The notes: generated by a model from the sequence alone, not told the origin. DNA of 64,000 bases from Desulfococcaceae bacterium HSG8 (GCA_030378015.1 JAUCGG010000004.1:1-64000); one strand, 5' to 3'. Counted from the first letter of the stretch, positions 13,171-26,224 are shown. Numbers and translations: made by a program.

Positions 13171-13420
13171 AGGCACTTAGCTGACAGTCGGTGGCCAAGA
13201 CGATTTTTATTTTTTTTTACAACTGACGGGTTGAGAAAGGCAGCCCTCAAAGTCTGTCTGTTTTGGCAGGTTTTGGAAAATCAGGTAAAAAGATGTGGAT
13301 AATCATATAATCATTCGCTTGTGGATCGTGTCCGCGAAAAACTGAGGGATAAGGAAAAAGCCTGAATTTTTGCACCTGGCAGTCTGCAGGGCAGATGCTT
13401 TGGCGTCAAGGAGATTGCAA

Positions 13421-13954
13421 ATGAAATCAAGCTACAATTCACATGTCAAACGTATTATCCTGGGCCTTGTGATTTTTGCCGTTGTCGGATTTATCGGCAA
13501 AGAAATTTCATCCCCTAAATCATTTGGTGTCTATGGGCATTATCGTGCAGATGCCATCCAGGAGGAAGCAGACAGGGATATGCGCCATAAAACAAACACA
13601 CCCTGCCTGCCGTGTCACACTCATGAGGCCGGACTTCATAAGAACGGACTTCATAAGACCATTTCCTGTGAGTTCTGCCATGGGCCCATGGCTGACCACA
13701 TCACCAGCGGCATAAAGACAGGGGAACTCCCAGTCAAAAAAGGGGAGGAAATCAGGGTCTTATGTCTGAGATGCCACAACAGGGCAATACATGCCAGACC
13801 CGGGGATGTCATCAAAACCGTGGTCATGCCCGATCATCTGAGGGATAAGAAGGTCAAGGAAACGCATACATGCAACCAGTGCCACCATGTACATGCGCCG
13901 TATAATTATATTGACCAGGCCAAACAGGCACTTAGTATAAAGGAGGCGAGCTGA
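13421..13954 (+). CDS. Membrane-anchored tetrahaem c-type cytochrome
   Basis: The 177-residue protein has one N-terminal membrane anchor (about 11-27) and a periplasmic part with four CxxCH haem sites at Cys62, Cys83, Cys115 and Cys151. The start at 13421 has a good Shine-Dalgarno (aaggag, 7 bases upstream); a longer frame reaching back to 13370 lacks one and would add a non-signal extension. It is the first gene of a three-gene operon (TGATG overlap with the next). Its role is probably electron transfer between the NrfD/ferredoxin membrane module and soluble periplasmic cytochromes. It differs from NrfH/NapC in haem spacing; the closest comparison by context is the cytochrome subunit of Dsr/Qrc/Act-type complexes, not settled here. 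Confidence 0.85.
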   Translation: MKSSYNSHVKRIILGLVIFAVVGFIGKEISSPKSFGVYGHYRADAIQEEADRDMRHKTNTPCLPCHTHEAGLHKNGLHKTISCEFCHGPMADHITSGIKTGELPVKKGEEIRVLCLRCHNRAIHARPGDVIKTVVMPDHLRDKKVKETHTCNQCHHVHAPYNYIDQAKQALSIKEAS

Positions 13955-14778
13955 TGGACAGGGAAAAACCTGAACTGAATGAAGAACGCCGGACCTTTAT
14001 AAAGAAGGTTCTCAAGGGAACCATCGCGGGTTCCCTGCTCCTGGTGATTCCGCTCAGGGCGGATGATCTGGAAACATCGGAGCAGATTCCGGAACACATT
14101 CCGGAACAGATTCCCGGGATCCGGGGCAGTGAATATGATATGTCCCGGCACCGTTTTGTGTTCATTGTGGATATCACCCGATGTATCGGCTGCGGTTCCT
14201 GCTGTGTGGCTGACAAGCGGGAATACAATGTTCCGGACGGCAATTACAGAACATGGGTGGAACGGTACATCAAAGATATTGACGAGAATATTTATGTGGA
14301 CTGTCCCAACGGCGGTCTGGACGGTTATCAGAAGCCTCGTGAGGACATTGACAGACCGGTCAGGGACACATTTTTCGTGCCCAAGCTGTGCAACATGTGC
14401 GAGGATCCCTCATGTGTGCAGGTCTGTCCTGTGGGCGCGACATTCAGATCCCCGGACGGCTTTGTGCTGATTGATTCCGAACGCTGTATCGGCTGTGCTT
14501 ACTGCATTCAGGCATGTCCGTATTCGGTCCGGTTTCTCAATCCGGTCACACATACGGCCGAAAAATGCAGTTGGTGCTATCACAGGGTCCGCCGCGGCCT
14601 GCTGCCTGTATGTGTCCATGTATGCCCTGCCAAGGCCAGGAAATTCGGGGACCTGAACGACAAAGAATCCGAGGTTTACAAAATCCTGAGCGGCCCCGGA
14701 GTCATAACCGTGCTCAAGAGAGATATGGGAAACTCGCCCTCACTTTATTATAAGGGCGCCCGACGGGAGGTGATCTGA
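13954..14778 (+). CDS. Tat-exported four-cluster ferredoxin subunit (NrfC/DsrO/HybA-like)
   Basis: The 274-residue protein begins with a twin-arginine signal (RRTFIKK at 12-18, then a hydrophobic stretch), so it should be folded before export. Four cysteine groups follow: CIGCGSCC, CNMCEDPSCVQVCP, CIGCAYCIQACP and CSWCYHRV...CVHVCP, the pattern for four [4Fe-4S] clusters in NrfC/PsrB/DsrO proteins. It overlaps the cytochrome gene by one base and the NrfD gene by one base (both TGATG), so translation is coupled. It would relay electrons between the quinone-binding NrfD subunit and the cytochrome. No catalytic molybdopterin subunit is present in the operon. Confidence 0.92.
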   Translation: MDREKPELNEERRTFIKKVLKGTIAGSLLLVIPLRADDLETSEQIPEHIPEQIPGIRGSEYDMSRHRFVFIVDITRCIGCGSCCVADKREYNVPDGNYRTWVERYIKDIDENIYVDCPNGGLDGYQKPREDIDRPVRDTFFVPKLCNMCEDPSCVQVCPVGATFRSPDGFVLIDSERCIGCAYCIQACPYSVRFLNPVTHTAEKCSWCYHRVRRGLLPVCVHVCPAKARKFGDLNDKESEVYKILSGPGVITVLKRDMGNSPSLYYKGARREVI

Positions 14779-15962
14779 TGAATGCAGCCCATGAAAATGC
14801 CATCACAATTCTGACCAACTATGTATTTCCCAATGATCTCCATGTTCACTGGAGCATGATGATCGCGTTATATCCTTATATTACCGGCATCGTGGCAGGT
14901 GCCTTTATCGTCTCTTCCCTTTACCATGTCTTCGGGGTGAAGTCCCTGAAACCCATTTCCCGGTTTTCCCTGCTGTTCGCGCTGGCTTTTCTCACCTGCG
15001 CCACCCTGCCGTTGCTGTTCCATCTCGGGCGGCCCGAAAGAAATTTCAACATCATGCTCACGCCGAATCCTTCTTCGGCAATGGCCGGATTCGGCTATAT
15101 TTATATGCTTTACGGGGTCGTTCTCCTGCTTGAGGTGCTGTTCATCTATCGTCCCACCCTGGTATATCTCAGGAAGAAATCCCAAGGGCTTATGGAAATG
15201 ATTTACAGGGCTTTGACGTTTGACAGCACAAACCTCTCTCCCGAATCCCTTGAACTGGATAGGAAGATCATCAGCTTTCTTGCCGCAATCGGTATTCCCA
15301 TGGCCTGTGTGCTTCACGGCTATGTCGGTTTCATCTTCGGGGGCATCAAAGCGAATCCGACGTGGGCCACGCCGCTTATGCCGGTTATTTTCCTGCTTTC
15401 CGCGTGTGTCTCCGGTGTCGCCGGCATCATCCTGGTGTATATTCTGATCAAGACGTTCACGAACAAACCGGCTGATACGGATTGTGTGCGGACCTGCACG
15501 AATTACCTCGCAGGGTTCTTTATCCTTGATTTTGTGTTTGAAATGCTGGAAGTATTATCCCATTCCTACCTGAGAACAGCGCATTACCACGCGGTGGATG
15601 AATTGCTGAACGGGCCGCTTTATAATTCCTTCTGGATAGGGCAGGTCGGCATACTCTCCGTGATCCCGCTGATTTTGCTGGGATGGCTGTGCCTGACCCG
15701 GGTAAATGACACGCTTTTCAAAATCGGCGCGTCGCTTGTCTCATTCATGCTTTTATTGCAGGTGGTATTCATGCGGTGGAATGTGGTTATCGGCGGTCAG
15801 CTAATATCCAAGAGTGCGAGAGGCTTCACTGTGTTTCATCCTGAATGGTTCGACAAGGAGGGCATTCTGACCGCCATTGTTCTGATGTGCGCTCCGCTGG
15901 TTGTCCTGTTTGTTATCAGCAGGATATTTCCATTCTGGATGGAAGAGATGGATGAAGGGTGA
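14778..15962 (+). CDS. NrfD/PsrC-type polytopic quinone-interacting membrane protein
   Basis: The 394-residue protein is strongly hydrophobic with about ten membrane segments, the layout of the NrfD/DsrP/HmcC-like group rather than the shorter eight-helix form. Recognisable pieces are FHLGRPER in the third segment region and the conserved NPSSAMAGFGY that follows. Family members exchange electrons with menaquinone in the inner membrane and may move protons. It is the last gene of the cytochrome-ferredoxin-NrfD operon, translated from a TGATG overlap with gtgatct just before. After the stop lies a simple gaagtttgaaggat repeat and then the 16008-16103 element. Confidence 0.92.
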   Translation: MNAAHENAITILTNYVFPNDLHVHWSMMIALYPYITGIVAGAFIVSSLYHVFGVKSLKPISRFSLLFALAFLTCATLPLLFHLGRPERNFNIMLTPNPSSAMAGFGYIYMLYGVVLLLEVLFIYRPTLVYLRKKSQGLMEMIYRALTFDSTNLSPESLELDRKIISFLAAIGIPMACVLHGYVGFIFGGIKANPTWATPLMPVIFLLSACVSGVAGIILVYILIKTFTNKPADTDCVRTCTNYLAGFFILDFVFEMLEVLSHSYLRTAHYHAVDELLNGPLYNSFWIGQVGILSVIPLILLGWLCLTRVNDTLFKIGASLVSFMLLLQVVFMRWNVVIGGQLISKSARGFTVFHPEWFDKEGILTAIVLMCAPLVVLFVISRIFPFWMEEMDEG

Positions 15963-16007
15963 AGTTTGAAGGATGAAGTTTGAAGTTTGAAGGCTTTTGC
16001 AAATATC

Positions 16008-16103: not shown

Positions 16104-16122
16104 CCAAATACCTGATGAGAAA

Positions 16123-16470
16123 ATGGCTGCATACAAGGCAACGGCCCGCCGTTGTTCGGAGCTGGAAAAGCAGATGTTATTCCGCCGCTACCGACATGCA
16201 TGGGATCTGGCCAGGCAAATGGGTGATCTGCTTAAAGAACGCTTCGGCGCGTCCCGGGTGGTCGTGTTCGGATCATTGGTCAGCAAGGAACTTTTCCACC
16301 GCAGATCAGATGTTGACCTGGCTGTCTGGGATCTGGATGAGAGGATGTATTACCGGGCAGTAGGTCAGCTCTTGTATTTGGATAGTGAAATAAGCATGGA
16401 TCTGGTGAGGATAGAAGAAGCATCTGATTCTTTGCGGGCAAGAATTGAAAAGGAGGGAAAAGTTCTATGA
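16123..16470 (+). CDS. Minimal nucleotidyltransferase (MNT-type antitoxin domain)
   Basis: The 115-residue protein has the pol-beta nucleotidyltransferase signature: Gly50-Ser51 (VVVFGSLV) and Asp63-x-Asp65 (RSDVDLAV). An N-terminal helical stretch (KATARRCSELEKQML...RRYRHAWDLA) is typical of the subgroup paired with a HEPN-type ribonuclease. In HEPN/MNT toxin-antitoxin systems the MNT enzyme blocks the toxin by modifying it. Earlier in-frame ATGs at 16072 and 16093 lie within an inverted-repeat element, so 16123 is preferred. The stop codon overlaps the ATG of the following partner gene (ATGA), but that partner is cut off after six codons by an insertion. Confidence 0.75.
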   Translation: MAAYKATARRCSELEKQMLFRRYRHAWDLARQMGDLLKERFGASRVVVFGSLVSKELFHRRSDVDLAVWDLDERMYYRAVGQLLYLDSEISMDLVRIEEASDSLRARIEKEGKVL

Positions 16471-16487
16471 AAGCAGATTATATCTGA
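16467..16487 (+). pseudogene. Start of the nucleotidyltransferase partner gene, truncated by insertion
   Basis: An ATGA overlap with the nucleotidyltransferase gene and a good ribosome site (aggaggg) introduce a frame that reads MKADYI then stop. MK.DY is a usual opening for the HEPN-like partner of this nucleotidyltransferase subgroup. The frame is cut at 16484, where the 180-bp inverted-repeat element begins. No continuation of a HEPN gene is recognisable after the element, so the rest has been lost. Confidence 0.5.
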
Positions 16488-16663
16488 TTATAACGGATTT
16501 AGGGGAGCCTGAATCAGAAAGCATTCCCTTAAAAATCACAGAGGGCCGCAGAGAAACCACAGAGAATAACAATAAAGACTCTGCGGTTCTCCGTGCCGGC
16601 CCCTTGCCGAAGGTGGATTGTCAGGGCACATTCACCGGGATCCCCTAAATCCGTTATAATCAG
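16484..16663. mobile_element. 180-bp MITE-like element with perfect terminal inverted repeats
   Basis: The ends are perfect 23-base inverted repeats starting ctgattataacggattta. Both sides are flanked by TAT (16481-16483 and 16664-16666), consistent with a short target duplication. Inside is a hairpin with arms cacagagggccgcagag and ctctgcggttctccgtg (about 16541-16592). It encodes nothing. An element with related ends lies at 25976-26224. Confidence 0.85.
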
Positions 16664-16664
16664 T

Positions 16665-17225
16665 ATGATCCTGGTTGTAATAAACACGCGGAAATCCTCT
16701 GACGAATCTCCGAATCTGCAGGACATCACCTTTTTCGAGCTGCATTTTCATCCCCGGCATCAGAACTGGTGTGGATGGTATCCGGCAATTACGACAGAGC
16801 CGAAGCAATTGGAAGACTTTGATATGATACGTCTCTCAGAACAGGGCTTGGTTCCTGTCAGCCCCTCAATTGAAAACTACTGGCATCACAGACAAAAATG
16901 GCCGTCCTCACAAGCGGCCCGATGGCTTTTCAGCACGAAGGGAAGATATGAGCATCCGCGGAACAAGATGAATCCGGGATGGGCTGTCCGGCAAAAAGAC
17001 AATACCTGGCTGGTATCCGGCTGGGCATGGTTGCCACACCACAGAGACATTCTGTACCATTACGCCACGATCAGGAGTCAGATGCGGGAACTTCTCTCCG
17101 GCCGAACCCATTGGCTTGATGCGTTGAATCTGGAGGGGAATGTCAGAAATGTGCAAATCACAATCAGAAGCGGCCCGGATGCATGGAATCAGGCGGCCAA
17201 AACAGTTGGAGGTGCAAATGATTAA
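16665..17225 (+). CDS. Unknown protein, first gene of the ATPase/TOPRIM operon
   Basis: A 186-residue product, rich in Trp and His (HPRHQNWCGWYPAI, ENYWHHRQKW, WLVSGWAWLPHHRD), with no family I recognise and no membrane segment or signal peptide. Its ATG begins two bases after the end of the 180-bp element, so the promoter and ribosome site may have been altered by that insertion; part of the natural N-terminus could be missing. It overlaps the ATPase gene by eight bases, which ties it to the ATPase and TOPRIM genes as one unit. It could be a sensor, regulator or third subunit; this is inference from position only. Confidence 0.6.
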   Translation: MILVVINTRKSSDESPNLQDITFFELHFHPRHQNWCGWYPAITTEPKQLEDFDMIRLSEQGLVPVSPSIENYWHHRQKWPSSQAARWLFSTKGRYEHPRNKMNPGWAVRQKDNTWLVSGWAWLPHHRDILYHYATIRSQMRELLSGRTHWLDALNLEGNVRNVQITIRSGPDAWNQAAKTVGGAND

Positions 17226-18525
17226 TCATTTATATATGCGGAATTTCCGGGGAATAGCGGAAGGGAAGATTGAGGATTTTGCCAAAATCAATCTGTTTGT
17301 GGGACCCAACAATACAGGAAAAAGTACTATTCTGGAAGCCCTCTATCTCATGACGACGGCTGACGTTCCCTGCTTCCTTGCCTCAAAAGAAGGGGAGTTC
17401 ACACCGGTGAGAATATCGGCTGACACGGATCTGATGGGCATCCAGCCCATGGTCCGTCTTTGGCAGCGCCACTGTTCTCCCATACGCTGGCAGGACGGGC
17501 CTGGCAAATGGGAAGATGGCAGAATCAGATTCATAAACTTGCCCGGGCCTCTTGACCATTACAATCTTCTTGAAGTAGAGAAGGAAGCCAGAACCGAGTT
17601 CGTCGCGGGTCAGGAAGAGCAGCTTGCATCGTTTGCTGTCGAAGTGACGAAACCGTTGGACGGTGATACTCAGGAAGAAACAAAGATTACGGGAGATGAA
17701 GAAAAGAAAGAAGACATGTCCGCGGTAATAAAAGATTACTTCGGCCATAAAGCCGCTGCATGGAAAAATCCGCGTTATGCTTTCCTCTGGTATCCCCTCT
17801 TCACCTATCAGATGAACGGGATGGCAGGATGGTCTGTGGAAGGTGATCTGCCGGCAGCCTGCCGGACACTTTTTTACGATTTTCACAGCGCGTCCCAACA
17901 TCTGACCAGAAACTTTGTTGTGAACCGGGGATTTGAGACCAGGCGATGGCTGAAGCGTATGGGAGATATTATGCAGGCCGTTTTCAACCTGGCTTCCGGC
18001 GATGATGTTCCTTATATCACCTTCACCAGCCTCAACATGCCGGAAACTGACATTATGGGAGGCTATATGGAACAGGGGTACAAACTGCTGCCCATTGATA
18101 TGTGGGGGGACGGAGCCAGGCATGCGTTTAAAATTATAGCACCCCTGCTTTCTCTGACAGATGATGTGAGTGAGGAAAAACCCGGGGTGCTGCTGTGGGA
18201 AGACCCGGAGCTGTTCTTGAACCCTGCTGCTTTGGAACGGCTGGTACGGGAAATCATCAGCCTCATCAGGGACAAGCCGATTCAGATGTTTGTCACAACA
18301 CAGAGTATGGAGGTGGTGGCTGCTTTTACGGATATGCTGCGAAACGGAGACATACCTGAAACTGATTTGAAAGCGTTTCGTCTGAGGATAAACCACGAAG
18401 GCAGACAATTTGTTTCCAAGTTCAAACCTCGGAATCTCATAGCGTGGCTGGAATCCGGCATGGATCCCCGTCTTTGGGAACAAGGAAAAGGCACCATCAA
18501 ATATAGTATAGGAGAAGAGGAATGA
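17218..18525 (+). CDS. AAA/ABC-class ATPase (OLD-like, AAA_15/AAA_21 group)
   Basis: The 435-residue protein opens INHLYMRNFRGIAEG and has a Walker A loop GPNNTGKS at 29-36, a signature-like DMWGDGARHAF, a Walker B region LLWEDPELFLNP (Glu328, Asp329) and TTQSME at 360-365, where related enzymes mostly have TTHS; the usual switch histidine is a glutamine here. These are hallmarks of SMC/ABC-like ATPases used in OLD, Gabija and PARIS-type defence systems. It has no nuclease domain of its own; a TOPRIM protein follows with a four-base overlap (ATGA). The start at 17218 has GGAGGT 4 bases upstream and replaces a longer frame that would start inside the previous gene. Confidence 0.85.
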   Translation: MINHLYMRNFRGIAEGKIEDFAKINLFVGPNNTGKSTILEALYLMTTADVPCFLASKEGEFTPVRISADTDLMGIQPMVRLWQRHCSPIRWQDGPGKWEDGRIRFINLPGPLDHYNLLEVEKEARTEFVAGQEEQLASFAVEVTKPLDGDTQEETKITGDEEKKEDMSAVIKDYFGHKAAAWKNPRYAFLWYPLFTYQMNGMAGWSVEGDLPAACRTLFYDFHSASQHLTRNFVVNRGFETRRWLKRMGDIMQAVFNLASGDDVPYITFTSLNMPETDIMGGYMEQGYKLLPIDMWGDGARHAFKIIAPLLSLTDDVSEEKPGVLLWEDPELFLNPAALERLVREIISLIRDKPIQMFVTTQSMEVVAAFTDMLRNGDIPETDLKAFRLRINHEGRQFVSKFKPRNLIAWLESGMDPRLWEQGKGTIKYSIGEEE

Positions 18526-19301
18526 CTTTCTATATCTTCGGAGAGGGAAAAACTGAAAAAATCCTTGTACACAGATTGACGGATGATAAGGTTGCGAACA
18601 AAATAAATCTGAACTTGCCTTCAAAACCTTTATTTATCGGAACCGGTGGGAAATATGATTCCGTAAACAAAATTTCAGAGAGATTGGAACCGGAACTGAG
18701 TCCTTTTCAGAAGGTGCGCTGCGTCATTCTCGCAGACAGAGACGCGGGGGATACAACAGAGAGTATCCGGGAGAAATACGAAAACGGCTTTTGTAAAATT
18801 TTGGAGGAGAGTGGCTATAAGACTGAGCTGTCTTTTCAGTTTCTCCATGGTTGGAACAATATTCTGACATTAGCGACATTTCCGCCGGATCTTCCGGATC
18901 TGCGGATAGCCCTGCATATTGCCGAGCCCCCCCCTTTGCCGATATCGGAAGACCAGATATCTGACAGCGCAGCCACTGACGGCTATATTCTTGCCGCTGC
19001 TCTCACGAAGCGCGTTCTCACTCGGTTTGCCCAAAAAGCAGGCATGACACAGGAAAAGTTATTGAACAAGATTACGCGGGAGATTCCTGACTTAATGAGA
19101 AGAAATGGAATTGAAAGGCTTGACTCCAAGGATTTTATTTCAGCATACATGACCGCAGCGCGCTTTCTCAAAATCAGTCGCTCCGAAGATGTGTCCACAT
19201 TTGCCGAAATTGTGATTTCCCGTGCCATTAAGCGGGAACCGGATGCTTTTAAGGAAATCTTTGCATCAACTCTGGAGGCATTCAGATGTGTGACTGCATA
19301 A
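18522..19301 (+). CDS. TOPRIM-domain protein, probable nuclease partner of the ATPase
   Basis: The 259-residue protein starts FYIFGEGKTEKILVHRL and later has VILADRDAG. Glu8 and the Asp72-x-Asp74 pair are the metal-binding residues expected in TOPRIM folds (OLD nucleases, DUF4276/DUF3226-like and AriB-like proteins). The C-terminal half is helical. It is translated from an ATGA overlap with the ATPase gene, giving a split version of the ATPase + TOPRIM pair that OLD nucleases carry in one chain. The likely function is ATP-controlled cleavage of nucleic acid in phage defence. Exact family not fixed; low similarity to well-studied members is expected. Confidence 0.75.
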   Translation: MTFYIFGEGKTEKILVHRLTDDKVANKINLNLPSKPLFIGTGGKYDSVNKISERLEPELSPFQKVRCVILADRDAGDTTESIREKYENGFCKILEESGYKTELSFQFLHGWNNILTLATFPPDLPDLRIALHIAEPPPLPISEDQISDSAATDGYILAAALTKRVLTRFAQKAGMTQEKLLNKITREIPDLMRRNGIERLDSKDFISAYMTAARFLKISRSEDVSTFAEIVISRAIKREPDAFKEIFASTLEAFRCVTA

Positions 19302-19357: not shown

Positions 19358-22300
19358 ATGAACTTTATGCGAAACAACACATTATTGTATTTCTGTCTTG
19401 TTCTGTTTGCAGCATGGCCGGTATGTCCAGATGCTTTTTCGGCCTTTGTCATAAACGAGCCTGCTGGAATGGAAGATTACAAAAATCATGAAGTGACATT
19501 GGATGACACGACTGTTGAAAGCGCCGACAGTTTCAGCGCATCCGGAAGCGAAACGGTTTATTATGTCTCATCCTCTGAGGGCAGCAGTTCAAACGACGGT
19601 CTGTCTCAGGACTCTCCCTGGGATTTTGACACCTTCAATGATCACGGGGCATCTGACTCTGTCTATCTTTTTAAGAGAGGGGATGAGTTCAGAGGCGTGA
19701 TCGCAAAGAAAATGCAAAAGACGAATATTAAGTTCGGAGCATACGGCACCGGAACCAGGCCTATGTTCCTCGGCAGTCTGAAGATAACAGGCTGGGAAAA
19801 AACTTCGGATGGCAGGATAAATTCGGAAATCAGAGACAAAGTGTATGAGGCGGATCTGTCAGATGCGGTGTTCGGCGGCAAGGAAAACGGCAATGGTATC
19901 AGGCATCTTTTTGTGAATCGCAAGCTTATGACCATCGCAAGATATCCGAATGTCAACTCCCCGGACAAGGCAAACTGGCTGAACATAGACGAGAAAAGAA
20001 GCCAATACAGTTTTTATGACGAGGAACTGGAAAGTTATAAAAACAGCCTGAACTATTGGAAAGGCGCCACTCTGAGAGCCAGGACATACAGTTGGCAATA
20101 CTCTGTCAGGGAGATTGTAGGCTATAACAATGGCGTGATAACCACTGAAAGTGAAACTACCCCCTGGTATCCCATAAAAGGATGGGGATATTTCATGGAT
20201 GACAAGCTTGAGGAACTGGATTATCCGGGAGAGTGGTATTATGACGGTGAGAACAGCAAAATATATCTCTATCCCCCGGAAGATACGGACATCAGCGACA
20301 GCCTGACAGAGGGAATCACTCATGACAACGGCATCAGCATCTATTGGAAGCAGCACAATGTGGCTGTCAGAGACCTCTCCTTCAAACATTATCTCAGTAG
20401 TTGTGTCAATATCAACAACTCGGACAATGTGATCATTGAAGACATCAATATGCAGTATTGCGGCAAAGGTGTCTATATCTATAATTCAAATGACACTGAG
20501 ATAAAAAACAATCATATTGACAACTCTTTTGCAACCGGTATCAGTGTCGGAAAACATGAAAATATTGATATTGCAGGGAATCAAATCACGAACAACGGCA
20601 TGTTTCTCACTTATGGCAGCTTCAACACTGCGCTGACACAGGGAAAGGGAATCAACAGCCTGAACGACGGAGCCTTGAACATATCAGGCAACAGCATTAT
20701 CAACTCATCGTATTCGGCACTGGAGATAGGCACTGACGGCGCGACGATCAGCAACAATTTCATTCAGGGATCGCTGCTGAATATCAATGATGGCGGCGCT
20801 ATCACCCTGAGAGGCAATAATGTTGAAATCACAGATAATATTATTATCGGTGTTTACGGCAACATCAATGACGGCGCAAACGGTTACACAGGAGAGGATA
20901 AAACTTCCAAGCACGGCTCCTACGGCATGGGCATCTTTGATTACAAAAAGATGCAAAACAATGTCATCACAGGTAACACGGTTGCTTATGCAAGAGACAT
21001 TGGCATCATGGTAACTGAGGGGGAGAAGAATTATGAGGTAAGCGGCAATGTCTCTTATGGAAATAAAGTTCAGATCCAGTCCAAAAAAGGCGGAAGCGGG
21101 ATAAAGATAAAGAACAACATAATGTATGTCGCCGACAATATCGTCATGGGCATGGAAAAATACGCATTTCACAAGGGCTTGGAGATAACTAACAGTCCTG
21201 AGAATCTTGATCTTGACAACAATTTTTACTGCTCTCCGTATTCTGAGAGTTATATTTTTTATGATGGCGGATATGATCTGGATTCTTTTCTGCATTTCAA
21301 TGGCACCCATGACAGAAACTCCGGCTCGTGTGATATCAGATTTCCCGGGTTTGAAATAAAGTCGGTTGCAGCGACTCTGGCGGAGGATGATTTTGAAGAT
21401 TGCGAAAACACCCCCCCGGTTCTGAGCGGAGGCACATGCAGTGACGACATAAGCAAAACCGGCTCTGAGAGTTTTATGAGAGAAAGTGCCACGTCTATAA
21501 AGCTTAAAAATGAGATCGCTTTTGAAAAAGATAAAATTTACAATTTGGAGTTCGACTCTTATGCGGCAGGCAGAACCACATATCAGTTCAGAATAGCAAA
21601 AACGGTTGATGGTGAGTTTGTCAGGCTGATACCTGAATCCAATTTTCAATTTAAAAACAAAATACAACACCATCAATATATGTTTCAGGCAAGACGTGAT
21701 CTGACAGTGGCACCGATCTTTTTGCTCAAAGACGGAGATGATCAGCAACTGTGGATAGACAATTTCAAATTTCAGGAAGTGGAGGCACAGCAAAAGGAAA
21801 AGACCAAAATCGTGTTTGACAATGAGGGGCTGAAAGGTATTTCAAGTGATTCCGCCCTGATTGTGAACAAAACTGATGAAAGCAAATCCTTTTCAATACC
21901 CGGCAATTATGAGACATTGGACAAACAAGGCGGTGACATGGTGCTGGAGCCGTTCAAGTCAGAAATAATTGTCAAAACAGGGACAGGAGATGTCCGTTAT
22001 ACCATTTCAGGTTATGTCAGGGACTCGGAGAGTGCCGGAATCAGCGGGGTGACAGTGAGTTTCAGCAACGATGCCGGTTCAGCAAGCACTGACAGCTCAG
22101 GGTTTTACAGCCAGTCTGTCAGCCAGGGATGGAGCGGGACGGTCACACCGAATATGAGCGGCTATGCCTTTGTCCCGGAGAACCTCTCATACAGCAACAT
22201 AAGTTCGGATCAGCCTGATCAGGATTTCACGGAAAAACCGCAGGTTATCCGCCATACAGTTTCAGGCTATGTCAGAGACTTGGAAAGTGCCGGAATCAGC

Positions 22301-23668
22301 GGGGTGACAGTGAGCTTCAGCAACGATGCCGGCTCCACAGTCACGGACAGTTCGGGATATTACAGCTTTGACGTTGATTCCGACTGGACAGGCACTGTCA
22401 CGCCGGATATTGAGAATTATACTTTCGATCCCCTGAACCGTTCCTACGACAGCCTGACCTCGGATCAGTCTGAACAGGATTATGCCGGAACAAAAGACAC
22501 TTATGCCATCTCCGGCAATGTCAGGGATGCAGAGAACAACGGAATCAGCGGGGTGACAGTGAGTTTCAGCAACGATGCCGGCTCCACAGTCACGGACAGT
22601 TCAGGATATTACAGCCTTGACGTGGCTTCTGACTGGACAGGCACTGTCACGCCGGATATTGAGAATTATACTTTCGATCCCCTGAACCGTTCCTACGACA
22701 GCCTGACCTCGGATCAGTCTGAACAGGATTATACATTCAGATTGAAATTCCTTGAAACAACTGAATACGACAGCATTCTTCAGGAACTGCGGAAAAATGA
22801 GCAGGAATCATCGGAGGAACATCAGCAGCGGATGGAAATCTGGAACAATACGGGGCACATATATCGTTTCCCCATGGAAGAGGCCCTGGCCTACGACGCT
22901 GAGAGAGGCTTCATGTTCGCGAAGATACATGCCCCTTTGCAGTCGGATTCGATCACCTATGAGATCAGCATTGAAAATGGCGAAAATGCTGATACGTTCG
23001 TCACAAGTATGTATGCCACAGCCGCGCTCCGGGTTTGGTACGGCAGCACTGAATCCGAACTGTCGCTCGGGATTGATGAGGATTCGATCATCGTCAAGCC
23101 GCCTGACGCGTATTCCACAGCACGAAAGGTGATTTTGCAGAATGAGTTTGACAGTCAGGCGTTTCAGGAGAAAATGAAGCAGCAATGGTATGAAAGCATC
23201 CCGGAATGGGAGGAGCGGATAGAGAATCACGCTGAGACCATAGCAATTGACAACATCATCACCGGGCCGGAAACCCAGGGCTACGGATATAACCCTGACA
23301 CCCGGGAAATGACTGTCGCCCTCGACCTGAGCAACATCGGCATGGGAAAAAAGGAATATGTTCTGGCAGACATGGACGCGAATGACGCGGATTTGTTTGT
23401 GAGTGCCGGATGGGCCACGGTGACAATAAAAACAGACACCGACCTCTCCATAAGAATTGCAGGGGACAAAATCAGTATGGGAAACGGCCGGGACTTTGCC
23501 TCATCAGCCCTGCAAACAAACAGCGGCAGTCTGAGGGTGATCAGCCTGCGTGATGCAATATTGGTTCTGAGAGTGTTGACAGGAAGCTCTGATGATATGA
23601 ACAGTGATGGGAAAATAGTGTTGGAAGAGGCTGTCCTTATCTTGCAGCTCATTGCAGGTGCGGAATGA
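19358..23668 (+). CDS. Giant secreted beta-helix protein with three Ig-like repeats and dockerin-like tail
   Basis: The 1436-residue protein has a signal peptide (about 1-29). Residues about 60-640 form a right-handed beta-helix of the pectate-lyase/NosD type (runs such as NNHIDNSF, ISGNSIINSSYSALEIG, VITGNTVAYARDIG). A jelly-roll-like part follows (about 660-835). Three about 83-residue repeats (about 880-964, 965-1046, 1048-1127) of the carboxypeptidase-regulatory/SdrD-B-like kind (ISG.VRD.E..GISGVTVSFSN) come next, the second and third being almost identical also in DNA. An unassigned region (about 1130-1390) precedes a C-terminal half-dockerin with one calcium loop, DMNSDGKIVLEEA. Good Shine-Dalgarno (aaggagg). 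Likely a surface polysaccharide-binding or lyase protein; catalytic residues cannot be named. Confidence 0.85.
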   Translation: MNFMRNNTLLYFCLVLFAAWPVCPDAFSAFVINEPAGMEDYKNHEVTLDDTTVESADSFSASGSETVYYVSSSEGSSSNDGLSQDSPWDFDTFNDHGASDSVYLFKRGDEFRGVIAKKMQKTNIKFGAYGTGTRPMFLGSLKITGWEKTSDGRINSEIRDKVYEADLSDAVFGGKENGNGIRHLFVNRKLMTIARYPNVNSPDKANWLNIDEKRSQYSFYDEELESYKNSLNYWKGATLRARTYSWQYSVREIVGYNNGVITTESETTPWYPIKGWGYFMDDKLEELDYPGEWYYDGENSKIYLYPPEDTDISDSLTEGITHDNGISIYWKQHNVAVRDLSFKHYLSSCVNINNSDNVIIEDINMQYCGKGVYIYNSNDTEIKNNHIDNSFATGISVGKHENIDIAGNQITNNGMFLTYGSFNTALTQGKGINSLNDGALNISGNSIINSSYSALEIGTDGATISNNFIQGSLLNINDGGAITLRGNNVEITDNIIIGVYGNINDGANGYTGEDKTSKHGSYGMGIFDYKKMQNNVITGNTVAYARDIGIMVTEGEKNYEVSGNVSYGNKVQIQSKKGGSGIKIKNNIMYVADNIVMGMEKYAFHKGLEITNSPENLDLDNNFYCSPYSESYIFYDGGYDLDSFLHFNGTHDRNSGSCDIRFPGFEIKSVAATLAEDDFEDCENTPPVLSGGTCSDDISKTGSESFMRESATSIKLKNEIAFEKDKIYNLEFDSYAAGRTTYQFRIAKTVDGEFVRLIPESNFQFKNKIQHHQYMFQARRDLTVAPIFLLKDGDDQQLWIDNFKFQEVEAQQKEKTKIVFDNEGLKGISSDSALIVNKTDESKSFSIPGNYETLDKQGGDMVLEPFKSEIIVKTGTGDVRYTISGYVRDSESAGISGVTVSFSNDAGSASTDSSGFYSQSVSQGWSGTVTPNMSGYAFVPENLSYSNISSDQPDQDFTEKPQVIRHTVSGYVRDLESAGISGVTVSFSNDAGSTVTDSSGYYSFDVDSDWTGTVTPDIENYTFDPLNRSYDSLTSDQSEQDYAGTKDTYAISGNVRDAENNGISGVTVSFSNDAGSTVTDSSGYYSLDVASDWTGTVTPDIENYTFDPLNRSYDSLTSDQSEQDYTFRLKFLETTEYDSILQELRKNEQESSEEHQQRMEIWNNTGHIYRFPMEEALAYDAERGFMFAKIHAPLQSDSITYEISIENGENADTFVTSMYATAALRVWYGSTESELSLGIDEDSIIVKPPDAYSTARKVILQNEFDSQAFQEKMKQQWYESIPEWEERIENHAETIAIDNIITGPETQGYGYNPDTREMTVALDLSNIGMGKKEYVLADMDANDADLFVSAGWATVTIKTDTDLSIRIAGDKISMGNGRDFASSALQTNSGSLRVISLRDAILVLRVLTGSSDDMNSDGKIVLEEAVLILQLIAGAE
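22250..22735 (+). repeat. Two near-identical 249-bp repeats within the giant secreted gene
   Basis: The segments starting at about 22250 and 22499 encode the second and third Ig-like repeats; over long stretches (for example from ggaatcagcggggtgacagt onwards, and the final 100 bases) the DNA is the same. A more diverged first copy starts at about 21995. This indicates recent tandem duplication and a site for copy-number change. Confidence 0.85.
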
Positions 23669-23876
23669 AAAGTGAGCGGACAGCCTGACTTAAATGCAGA
23701 CACGCAGGTATGGGTAAAGGGGTTAAGCCGTGTTCCTTAACCCTTAACCTTTAACCTTTACCCTTGCAACGAAAGGGGGTGATATTTTCATTTTTGATTA
23801 AAAGCGGTTGGTACTTTTCCGGTGTCTGATGGAACACCAACACCAAACTTTTCAATCTCAAAGAGGAGAATAAAAG

Positions 23877-25469
23877 ATGTATCTGATCAGATCTGTGTTT
23901 GTCGGACTTGCTTTGGGAGTATTCATTGCGGGTACCGCATTCGGACTTACAAAGGAATCTTTTGATGTGAAAAATCCCAAGGTACAGGAGATCAACAAGA
24001 AGTGTATCACCTGTCATCTCAAGGAAAACAAGTCCCTTGTGATGCAGTGGGAGGACTCCCCTCATGCAGCAGCAAAAGAGGGGCAGGTCGGATGTTACAA
24101 CTGTCATGCGGCGGACAAGGGTGACGAGTACGGCTACATGCATGAAGGCGCGTTCATCAGGGCGGTACTGACGCCTAATGACTGCCAGAAATGCCATGAG
24201 CCGGAATATGAGCAGATGCAGAAGTCGCATCACTCCACAGCAGGTGAGATCATGGCTTCCCTGGACAACATGCTCGCCGAGGTCATCGGCGGTATGCCTA
24301 GCAACAAGGCCAACATGCACAGCGGATGCTGGCAGTGCCACGGCTCTGTTGTCAAGCTTGAACGGGACAAGGACGGGAAACCGCTCCGCAGTCAGACCGA
24401 TGCTCCCATGACAGACCACAACACATGGCCCAATTCCGGGATCGGACGGATCAACCCGGATGGCACCAAGGGCACCTGCAATGCCTGTCATTCCAAGCAT
24501 TCTTTCAGGGCCAGCACTGCAAGGCAGCCCGACAACTGCGGCAAATGCCATATGGGACCTGACCATCCCCAGAAGGAAATCTATGAGGAATCCAAACATG
24601 GTATTGCTTATAAGAGCGCCATGAGAAAAGACGGTCAGAACGGTATGGATATTATGAAGGACGGCAAGTGGATACTGGGCAAGGATTATCATTATGCCCC
24701 GACGTGTTCAAGCTGTCATATGGGATCTTTTGTGAAGCTGAACGGTGCGATTGCGCCGAACACGCACAACGTGGGGGACCGAATATCCTGGACCCTGCGT
24801 CCGCCTGTCTCGGCCAAACTGAACCGGGTGACATTTGCAGACGGAACAGTGACCGATGTTCCGGGTGAGATTCCGCCCCGTGCCGGTCAGATGGCACAAT
24901 ACAAGACTTATGTTGTTGCAGAGAATTACAAGCTGAAAAAAGTCGTCACTGACAAGCAGATCAAGGAAGTGCTTCCCTGGAAACAGCGGCGCAAGAATAT
25001 GCAGGAGGTGTGCAAGTCCTGTCACGGGGTAAATCAGATTGAAGGCTTTTATAAGCAGTTTGACGAGCTTGTCACACTCTACAACGAAAAATTCGCCAAG
25101 CCCGGGGCAGCAATTGTGAAGGCCCTGAAAGATGACGGCATCTGGAAGGCCAGCGGATTCCAGAATCACCTAGGATATACCTGGTTTGAAATCTGGCATC
25201 ATGAAGGCCGGAGGGCACGTCACGGCGCTGCGATGAGCGGTCCTGACTATACGCACTGGCATGGCATGTATGAAGTCAGCCGCAACTTTTATCAAGAGTT
25301 CCTGCCCGAAGTCCTGGAACTGGCGGAGGAAGCTGGCAAGGGTGAGAAGTACAAGAAGATGATTGAGGAACTCATGGCCAAGCCGGAGCATATATGGAAG
25401 CGCACCGGTGGCAGTGCTGAAACCATGAAACTCATTGAAGAAGAACGGAAAATGCGCTATAATCAGTAA
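23877..25469 (+). CDS. Octahaem cytochrome c of the hydroxylamine oxidoreductase-like family
   Basis: The 530-residue periplasmic protein (signal peptide about 1-23) has eight CxxCH sites at Cys43, 73, 103, 151, 201, 221, 277 and 379. The count, spacing and C-terminal block EGRRARHGAAMSGPDYTHWHG match HAO-like octahaem cytochromes. In ammonia oxidisers the enzyme oxidises hydroxylamine through a haem cross-linked to a Tyr; related forms in reducers work in the other direction on nitrite or hydroxylamine. Tyr458 lies in the C-terminal region where such a residue is found, but alignment is needed to call it. Shine-Dalgarno agaggag precedes the start. No NrfH-type gene is adjacent; the NrfD module 8 kb away could supply electrons. 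Confidence 0.85.
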   Translation: MYLIRSVFVGLALGVFIAGTAFGLTKESFDVKNPKVQEINKKCITCHLKENKSLVMQWEDSPHAAAKEGQVGCYNCHAADKGDEYGYMHEGAFIRAVLTPNDCQKCHEPEYEQMQKSHHSTAGEIMASLDNMLAEVIGGMPSNKANMHSGCWQCHGSVVKLERDKDGKPLRSQTDAPMTDHNTWPNSGIGRINPDGTKGTCNACHSKHSFRASTARQPDNCGKCHMGPDHPQKEIYEESKHGIAYKSAMRKDGQNGMDIMKDGKWILGKDYHYAPTCSSCHMGSFVKLNGAIAPNTHNVGDRISWTLRPPVSAKLNRVTFADGTVTDVPGEIPPRAGQMAQYKTYVVAENYKLKKVVTDKQIKEVLPWKQRRKNMQEVCKSCHGVNQIEGFYKQFDELVTLYNEKFAKPGAAIVKALKDDGIWKASGFQNHLGYTWFEIWHHEGRRARHGAAMSGPDYTHWHGMYEVSRNFYQEFLPEVLELAEEAGKGEKYKKMIEELMAKPEHIWKRTGGSAETMKLIEEERKMRYNQ

Positions 25470-25477
25470 CAGAGGTG

Positions 25478-25517
25478 AAAAATGGGAAGTGAGGAATGGC
25501 TCGCTTCTCATTTTTTA
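25478..25517 (+). terminator. Rho-independent terminator of the octahaem cytochrome gene
   Basis: Arms aaaaatgggaagtgag and ctcgcttctcattttt pair around a short loop and end in a T run, 10 bases after the stop codon. Confidence 0.75.
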
Positions 25518-25647
25518 TGCGAACACTCTTAAAAATGCAATAATATGTCAGATAGTTATTATCCTGAATTTCATATTTATGCCGAGATATGAGACGGATG
25601 CGCGCCAAAAAAGAATTTAGGCGATTCTCAGTAGATCGAAAACTTTT

Positions 25648-25975: not shown

Positions 25976-26224
25976 CTGATTATAACTGATTCCGGGGATG
26001 GTATTTTTTGTCCCGGAGGGACATCTGAGAACAGCCCGGCAGTTCATTGCCGGGTAAGAGACATGAACATCTCCCGGAGTCCCGCAGGGACGACTGAATC
26101 AGTCGTCCCTGAGGGACTCTCCGACAGGCTGTGCAGCCCGGCAATGAATTGCCGGGCTATTCCCGGATGTCCCTCCGGGACAGGAAAGTGCCTCCCCAAA
26201 ATCCGTTATAATCGTTATAATCAG
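25976..26224. mobile_element. 249-bp MITE-like element related to the one at 16484
   Basis: The left end ctgattataactgattccg and right end ccgttataatcag (with an extra cgttataat unit) resemble the terminal repeats of the 180-bp element. The interior differs: it has facing cccggcagttcattgccggg-type hairpins and tcccggagggacat / atgtccctccggga arms. It has no coding capacity. Confidence 0.7.

Follow-up and report, generated by a model that had tools for sequence, protein, structure and literature searches.

A three-gene ATPase/TOPRIM-like locus in a Desulfococcaceae bacterium, probably left behind by a type III-C CRISPR operon

Do three tightly overlapping genes in the genome of Desulfococcaceae bacterium HSG8 encode a new defense system, or are they what is left of a larger one? 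The genes lie in a 64,000-nucleotide stretch of DNA, here called the window, and the original prediction had read them as an undescribed three-part defense system: a first gene that it could not place in any family, an ABC/AAA-class ATPase, and a separate small TOPRIM chain, the last two recalling OLD and PARIS. The layout behind this reading holds on the sequence, with overlaps of 8 bases between gene 1 and the ATPase gene and of 4 bases between the ATPase gene and the third gene. The motifs that had been named are likewise all present in the translations: GPNNTGKS at ATPase residues 29-36, TTQSME with a glutamine (Q362) at the usual position of the switch histidine, and E8 and D72-R-D74 in the third protein. 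The ATPase start at 17218 is backed by a homologue that starts at the same residue. The features of the locus and its surroundings are collected in Table 1.

Table 1. Features of the three-gene locus and its flanks, in window coordinates.
Feature	Position	Strand	Description
MntA-like nucleotidyltransferase	16129..16470	+	NF047752 MntA, E=3e-8; resident gene left of junction; start codon uncertain
hepT stub (MKADYI*)	16468..16488	+	HepT partner of MntA-like gene lost; cut by MITE
Replaced segment	16480..23769	.	7.3 kb relative to sister genome G004, which has hepT there
MITE	16484..16663	.	180 bp; perfect 21-bp terminal inverted repeats; no target-site duplication
Gene 1	16665..17225	+	186 aa; 3' remnant of cmr1, C-terminal part, N-terminal RAMP domain missing
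ATPase gene	17218..18525	+	435 aa; OLD/AriA-like AAA (ABC-class), intact; Gln for switch His
Third gene	18522..19301	+	259 aa; small TOPRIM-like protein, intact; E8, E12, D72, D74, K203
Beta-helix/carboxypeptidase-regulatory-repeat protein	19358..23668	+	1436 aa; Pfam Beta_helix, CarboxypepD_reg; within replaced segment

The predicted ABC/AAA class of the ATPase was borne out by a Pfam match to AAA_15/AAA_21 (E=8e-18). The protein has the ABC-class Walker A and the C-terminal part of OLD-family ATPases (PADLOC Old, GajA and AriA profiles); its best PADLOC profile was AbiLi (E=1.8e-24), with AriA lower (E=1.6e-19). The proteins of gene 1 and the third gene had no family above noise in Pfam, NCBIfam, PADLOC or PHROGs. 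When the third protein was searched against genomes of the class, the sole relative lay on contig C170 of genome G082, and the ATPase of that locus (P0005) is 30% identical to the window ATPase over its full length. In a small tree the two ATPases were sisters with a support of 1.000, and the ATPases of two-gene pairs with DUF3226 proteins formed a separate branch. The switch-histidine site reads TTQS in the window, CSQS in G082 and TTHS in the DUF3226-linked ATPases, so that the glutamine singled out in the original prediction occurs in the relative too, with histidine in the ordinary pairs. This conserved glutamine may confer slow ATP turnover of a kind that would suit a switch.

A profile of both ATPases was run against 389 genomes drawn from the order, 395 from the phylum and 389 from the class, and full-length relatives turned up in two genomes, that of the window and G082; because these draws overlap and few candidates per genome were scored, the numbers of relatives are lower bounds. 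Genome-contig scans returned no close relative of full length, and searches of plasmids, phages and viral contigs, in which short N-terminal P-loop matches were disregarded, returned no full-length relative of the ATPase, the third protein or gene 1. The ATPase/TOPRIM-like pair is rare: two loci that bear it were found, in the window and in G082, one of them a remnant.

Gene 1 had not been placed in any family, and its protein proved to be the C-terminal part of Cmr1. It aligned with residues 202-334 of the G082 Cmr1 (P0004) at 28% identity (E=2e-14) and with a Cmr1 profile in hhalign (E=1.8e-6), and in an alignment with further III-C Cmr1 proteins it fell on their C-terminal region, its GWAWLP on the conserved Cmr1 GWLP (G-W-x-P). 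What is absent is the RAMP domain (PF03787) at the Cmr1 N terminus. On these alignments, therefore, the "unknown" gene is a remnant of cmr1, debris and not the third component of a new system. Elsewhere, in the III-C locus of genome G433 (L046, 12615-14454), cmr1 is interrupted by an insertion element resembling IS110, which has left a C-terminal cmr1 fragment similar in extent to gene 1.

A Cmr1-MntA fusion, which the MntA-like gene upstream had brought to mind, was rejected as the source of gene 1 because the sister genome G004 pairs the MntA-like gene with hepT. The solved protein named Cmr1-MntA (PDB 9z7q, chain I) matched the Cmr1 profile weakly (E=0.04) and hints at further enzyme domains joined to Cmr1.

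The sequence in front of gene 1 suggests how the fragment may have arisen. In G004 the MntA-like protein is 93% identical and is followed by an intact HepT (PF20797, E=5e-33). The window stub has ATGAAAGCAGATT in common with the intact hepT of G004 and diverges from position 16480, and the left flank of the MITE is the first 12-13 bases of a G004-type hepT. In blastn, window positions 13408-15963 and 16105-16479, and then 23770-25523, matched contig C498 of G004 at 90-95% identity (92% over the left flank and 90% over the right flank). The beta-helix protein that fills much of the replaced segment showed no CRISPR link. The MITE, which ends directly before the gene 1 start codon, belongs to a genome-wide family with terminal-inverted-repeat matches across the genome. 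Among 13 other copies (a count that excludes a diverged second pair in the window), 11 have a perfect 8-bp target-site duplication and a further copy matches at 7 of the 8 bases; the flanks of the junction copy, GATTATAT and TATGATCC, agree at 4 of 8 positions.

We rejected a simple insertion of the MITE into an intact cmr1 because the left flank is hepT and a target-site duplication is absent. The simplest account would be that one MITE in hepT recombined with another in cmr1, which would have left a single MITE with no duplication, the stub of hepT and a cmr1 that lacks its 5' part. A gene 1 that is cmr1 stripped of its RAMP domain at a MITE junction speaks against the undescribed three-part system originally proposed. 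The second, diverged MITE-like inverted-repeat pair lies at window positions 25976-26215; the only Rfam match of the window, an Acido-Lenti-1 RNA (26137-26182), overlaps it and may be part of a MITE.

The G082 locus is a complete type III-C operon. Its order is nine CRISPR repeats, cmr1, the ATPase gene, the TOPRIM-like gene, a cmr6-like RAMP gene, csx11, cmr4, a Cmr5-sized open reading frame and a further RAMP gene. Cmr1 (TIGR01894), Cmr4 (TIGR02580) and Csx11 (TIGR02682, 347 bits against a cut-off of 249) all scored above cut-off; the Cmr6-like and third RAMP proteins were identified by PF03787, and the Cmr5-like frame had no profile match. In type III-C the Cas10 is Csx11. That of G082 has SEPRTFM in the GGDD region of the palm and HN at the HD motif; it has lost the cyclase motif and probably its HD nuclease. 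The assignment to type III-C follows from a csx11 with an inactive cyclase together with cmr1, cmr4, cmr6 and further RAMP genes arranged canonically. The ATPase/TOPRIM-like pair occupies the 2.1 kb between cmr1 and cmr6, with a 3-bp gap after cmr1 and an ATGA overlap with cmr6. By comparison, of 14 other III-C loci that have both genes (two of them on annotated cyanobacterial plasmids), 13 have cmr1 adjoining or overlapping cmr6, and in the remaining one the two genes are 294 bp apart. We found csx11 in 14 of 297 genomes of the phylum, and the pair was in none of the III-C loci fetched from those 14 genomes.

The three-gene order that the original prediction had proposed to seek in other genomes thus does recur, as cmr1, ATPase and TOPRIM-like gene, but inside a complete type III-C operon. 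The identities between window and G082 are 28%, 30% and 24% in that order. Since the three proteins have diverged to 24-30% identity and their order has been kept, the linkage is old, which argues for a functional tie between the pair and cmr1. On gene content and order, the pair is a true addition to type III-C and the variant with this accessory module is new.

Two other III-C neighborhoods contain genes of note. Upstream of the III-C operon of genome G312 (L038, 17135-19102) lies a gene for a 655-aa single-chain OLD-like protein, with an ATPase and C-terminal TOPRIM-like EG...DAD motifs, and a large methyltransferase-like gene stands between it and cmr1. The III-C operons of two related conjugative cyanobacterial plasmids (L130 and L131, 918-4485) adjoin an E2-like/Mov34/ThiF ubiquitin-like gene cluster.

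The window locus itself has no csx11, no intact cmr1 and no array, and so falls outside type III-C as it stands. No csx11, cmr6 or cmr4 was found in the window contig, no CRISPR array among the window repeats, and no csx11 in the window genome (G000), which is 81.5% complete, so that III-C genes could lie in its unassembled parts. Type III loci, III-A and III-D among them, are nevertheless present in the genome. At one of these (L119, contig C251, 2-2212), a Septu pair, the ATPase PtuA and the HNH nuclease PtuB (PADLOC E=1e-70 and 3e-52), begins a few bases after the III-D genes for Csx10, Csx7 and Csx19, placed as if part of the type III operon. At another (L122, contig C359, 3971-5661), a PARIS-type AriB (DUF4435, E=1.9e-38) and part of an AriA adjoin a type III RAMP cluster. 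Counting the window pair, ATPase-nuclease pairs are linked to type III loci three times in this one genome.

Taken together, these results lead us to favor, with a probability of roughly 0.7, the reading that the locus is an orphaned III-C remnant, composed of the truncated 3' half of cmr1, an intact gene for an OLD/AriA-like ATPase and a small TOPRIM-like gene. The ancestral state would have been as in G082, where cmr1 and cmr6 flank the pair in an operon with a cyclase-dead Csx11. In the window organism, the cas part would have been lost at the MITE junction, and the pair may now be idle, act alone or work with a different type III complex encoded in the genome.

The pair could instead be an ordinary split OLD/PARIS-like or ATPase+DUF3226 pair that was inserted by chance beside cmr1 in an ancestor and has no tie to CRISPR. 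Pairs of the ATPase+DUF3226 type occur commonly in these genomes, so that the separate small TOPRIM chain, which had been offered as a distinguishing trait of the locus, does not set it apart within the group. Moreover, the Septu and PARIS pairs beside the type III loci of the window genome indicate that such pairs neighbor type III loci generally. However, a chance neighbor would hardly be expected to stay beside cmr1, closely packed and in unchanged order, across two distant families whose proteins share about 30% identity, nor to sit inside rather than beside the G082 operon, packed tightly against both flanking genes, nor to have glutamine for the switch histidine in both ATPases. We regard chance insertion as unlikely.

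A further alternative retains the stand-alone three-gene system and makes the Cmr1 C-terminal domain a recruited sensor or adaptor (e.g., for RNA or protein binding) that acts outside any CRISPR complex. The three frames are open and overlap tightly, and the cmr1 remnant runs for 186 codons free of internal stops. Yet gene 1 has no evident ribosome-binding site and starts 2 bases past the end of a MITE that lacks a target-site duplication, no second genome with the locus in this form was found, and gene 1 had no homologues in the other relatives searched. Among the genomes searched, moreover, the ATPase occurs elsewhere only inside a full III-C operon. Such a system is, in our judgment, distinctly improbable.

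What kind of protein the third gene encodes bears on the remaining alternative and on how the pair might work. The protein is 24% identical over its full length to the G082 homologue (P0006), which has DxE where the window protein has DxD. It had no match up to E=10 to the PF11536 (DUF3226) model or to DUF4435/AriB, and no AbiLii/RloB partner match. Sequence alone did not establish membership of DUF3226, with hhalign giving E=0.03-0.11 and profile and shuffle tests at chance level. Aligned with DUF3226 partners, the protein shares the first-strand E8-G, D72-x-D74 and the C-terminal K203. An AlphaFold2 model from the third protein and its G082 relative (two sequences) was unusable (pLDDT 40.7), whereas one from a DUF3226-containing alignment reached a pLDDT of 77.8 and a pTM of 0.78, though the DUF3226 proteins in that alignment may have partly imposed the fold. 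The best structural match of the latter model was PH0156 (2p62), which we take to be a DUF3226 protein (Foldseek E=3.5e-6; Z 14.8 over 205 residues). OLD TOPRIM regions followed (Z 9.7 and 9.1), then AriB of PARIS (Z 8.2) and GajA (Z 7.3), with unrelated folds appearing from Z 7.5 on. This model makes it likely that the third protein is a TOPRIM. Of the predicted OLD/PARIS-like combination, then, the pairing with an ATPase stands, and the TOPRIM part is carried by a predicted fold and not by sequence; that fold emerged only once DUF3226 proteins had joined the alignment.

Membership of the locus in PARIS (AriA/AriB) is very improbable, for although the ATPase matches AriA profiles and the model of the third protein resembles AriB, that protein lacks the AriB/DUF4435 match by which the true AriB of the same genome was easily found, and the ATPase scores higher with AbiLi than with AriA; nor, as the original prediction had allowed, does the pair fall cleanly within PARIS.

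For the orphaned III-C operon, how might the pair have worked? Type III-C loci have been described as lacking both cyclase sites and known effectors, with HD kept in half of the systems (PMC11229360), and III-C is among the subtypes with an inactivated Cas10 polymerase, with CRISPR arrays absent from most loci (PMC12669027). We found no OLD/TOPRIM effector in III-C in the open-access literature searched. Given a subtype that has no known effector, the cmr1-linked pair becomes a candidate effector independent of cyclic oligoadenylate; since half of III-C systems keep HD, it would not be needed by III-C in general. By analogy with PARIS and OLD, an ATPase dimer would bind the TOPRIM nuclease and hold it inactive. 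Binding of foreign RNA by the crRNA-guided III-C complex would pass a change by contact to the ATPase, perhaps via Cmr1/Cmr6, and the ATPase would release or align the nuclease, which would then cut nucleic acid, all with no cyclic-oligoadenylate step. We infer both the nuclease activity of the pair and its coupling to the III-C complex. A III-C operon with a dead cyclase, an altered HD and an ATPase-nuclease pair fits a replacement effector. We tentatively propose, at somewhat less than even odds, that a type III-C system has in this pair its first effector, a contact-switched nuclease alongside a cyclase-dead, HD-altered Cas10.

For the question of how III-C loci defend cells, the G082 operon offers a concrete candidate effector. 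The pair also links two fields, those of OLD/PARIS ATPase-nucleases and of type III CRISPR, and the window shows that MITEs can leave orphaned defense modules that resemble new systems.

The locus can be set against the known systems as follows. In the OLD family an ATPase is coupled with a TOPRIM nuclease, and in PARIS, the class 4 OLD, the two are separate chains (PMC10568477). The window pair is like PARIS in having a separate ABC-class ATPase and a small TOPRIM-like chain with a predicted fold near that of AriB; it differs in the missing DUF4435/AriB sequence match, the glutamine for the switch histidine and the CRISPR operon context. It shares an ATPase family and a predicted TOPRIM-like fold with class 1 OLD, GajA of Gabija and retrons Eco8 and Eco2, but in OLD classes 1-3 ATPase and TOPRIM are on one chain, whereas here they are two genes. 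Gabija has the UvrD-like helicase GajB, which is absent here, where the neighbors are the nucleotidyltransferase and the beta-helix protein, and the window locus has no reverse transcriptase of the kind found with retrons. AbiL supplies the best ATPase profile, AbiLi, but not a match to its AbiLii/RloB partner. The pairs of AAA_21 ATPase and DUF3226 (PF11536) have the same two-gene layout and, through PH0156, the closest structure to the modeled third protein; their ATPases, however, keep TTHS on a separate branch and have no CRISPR link, and the third protein has no significant PF11536 match. The likeness to type III-C lies in gene 1, which corresponds to the Cmr1 C terminus, and in the G082 operon, complete with array and cyclase-less Csx11. 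In known III-C loci, for which no effector is known, cmr6 directly follows cmr1, whereas in G082 the pair lies between the two, and the window copy lacks all other cas genes in a genome that is 81.5% complete. Finally, Septu beside the III-D locus of the window genome differs in its HNH nuclease, its ATPase family and its subtype, III-D and not III-C, but provides a likeness in arrangement, an ABC ATPase and a nuclease added as a pair to a type III operon.
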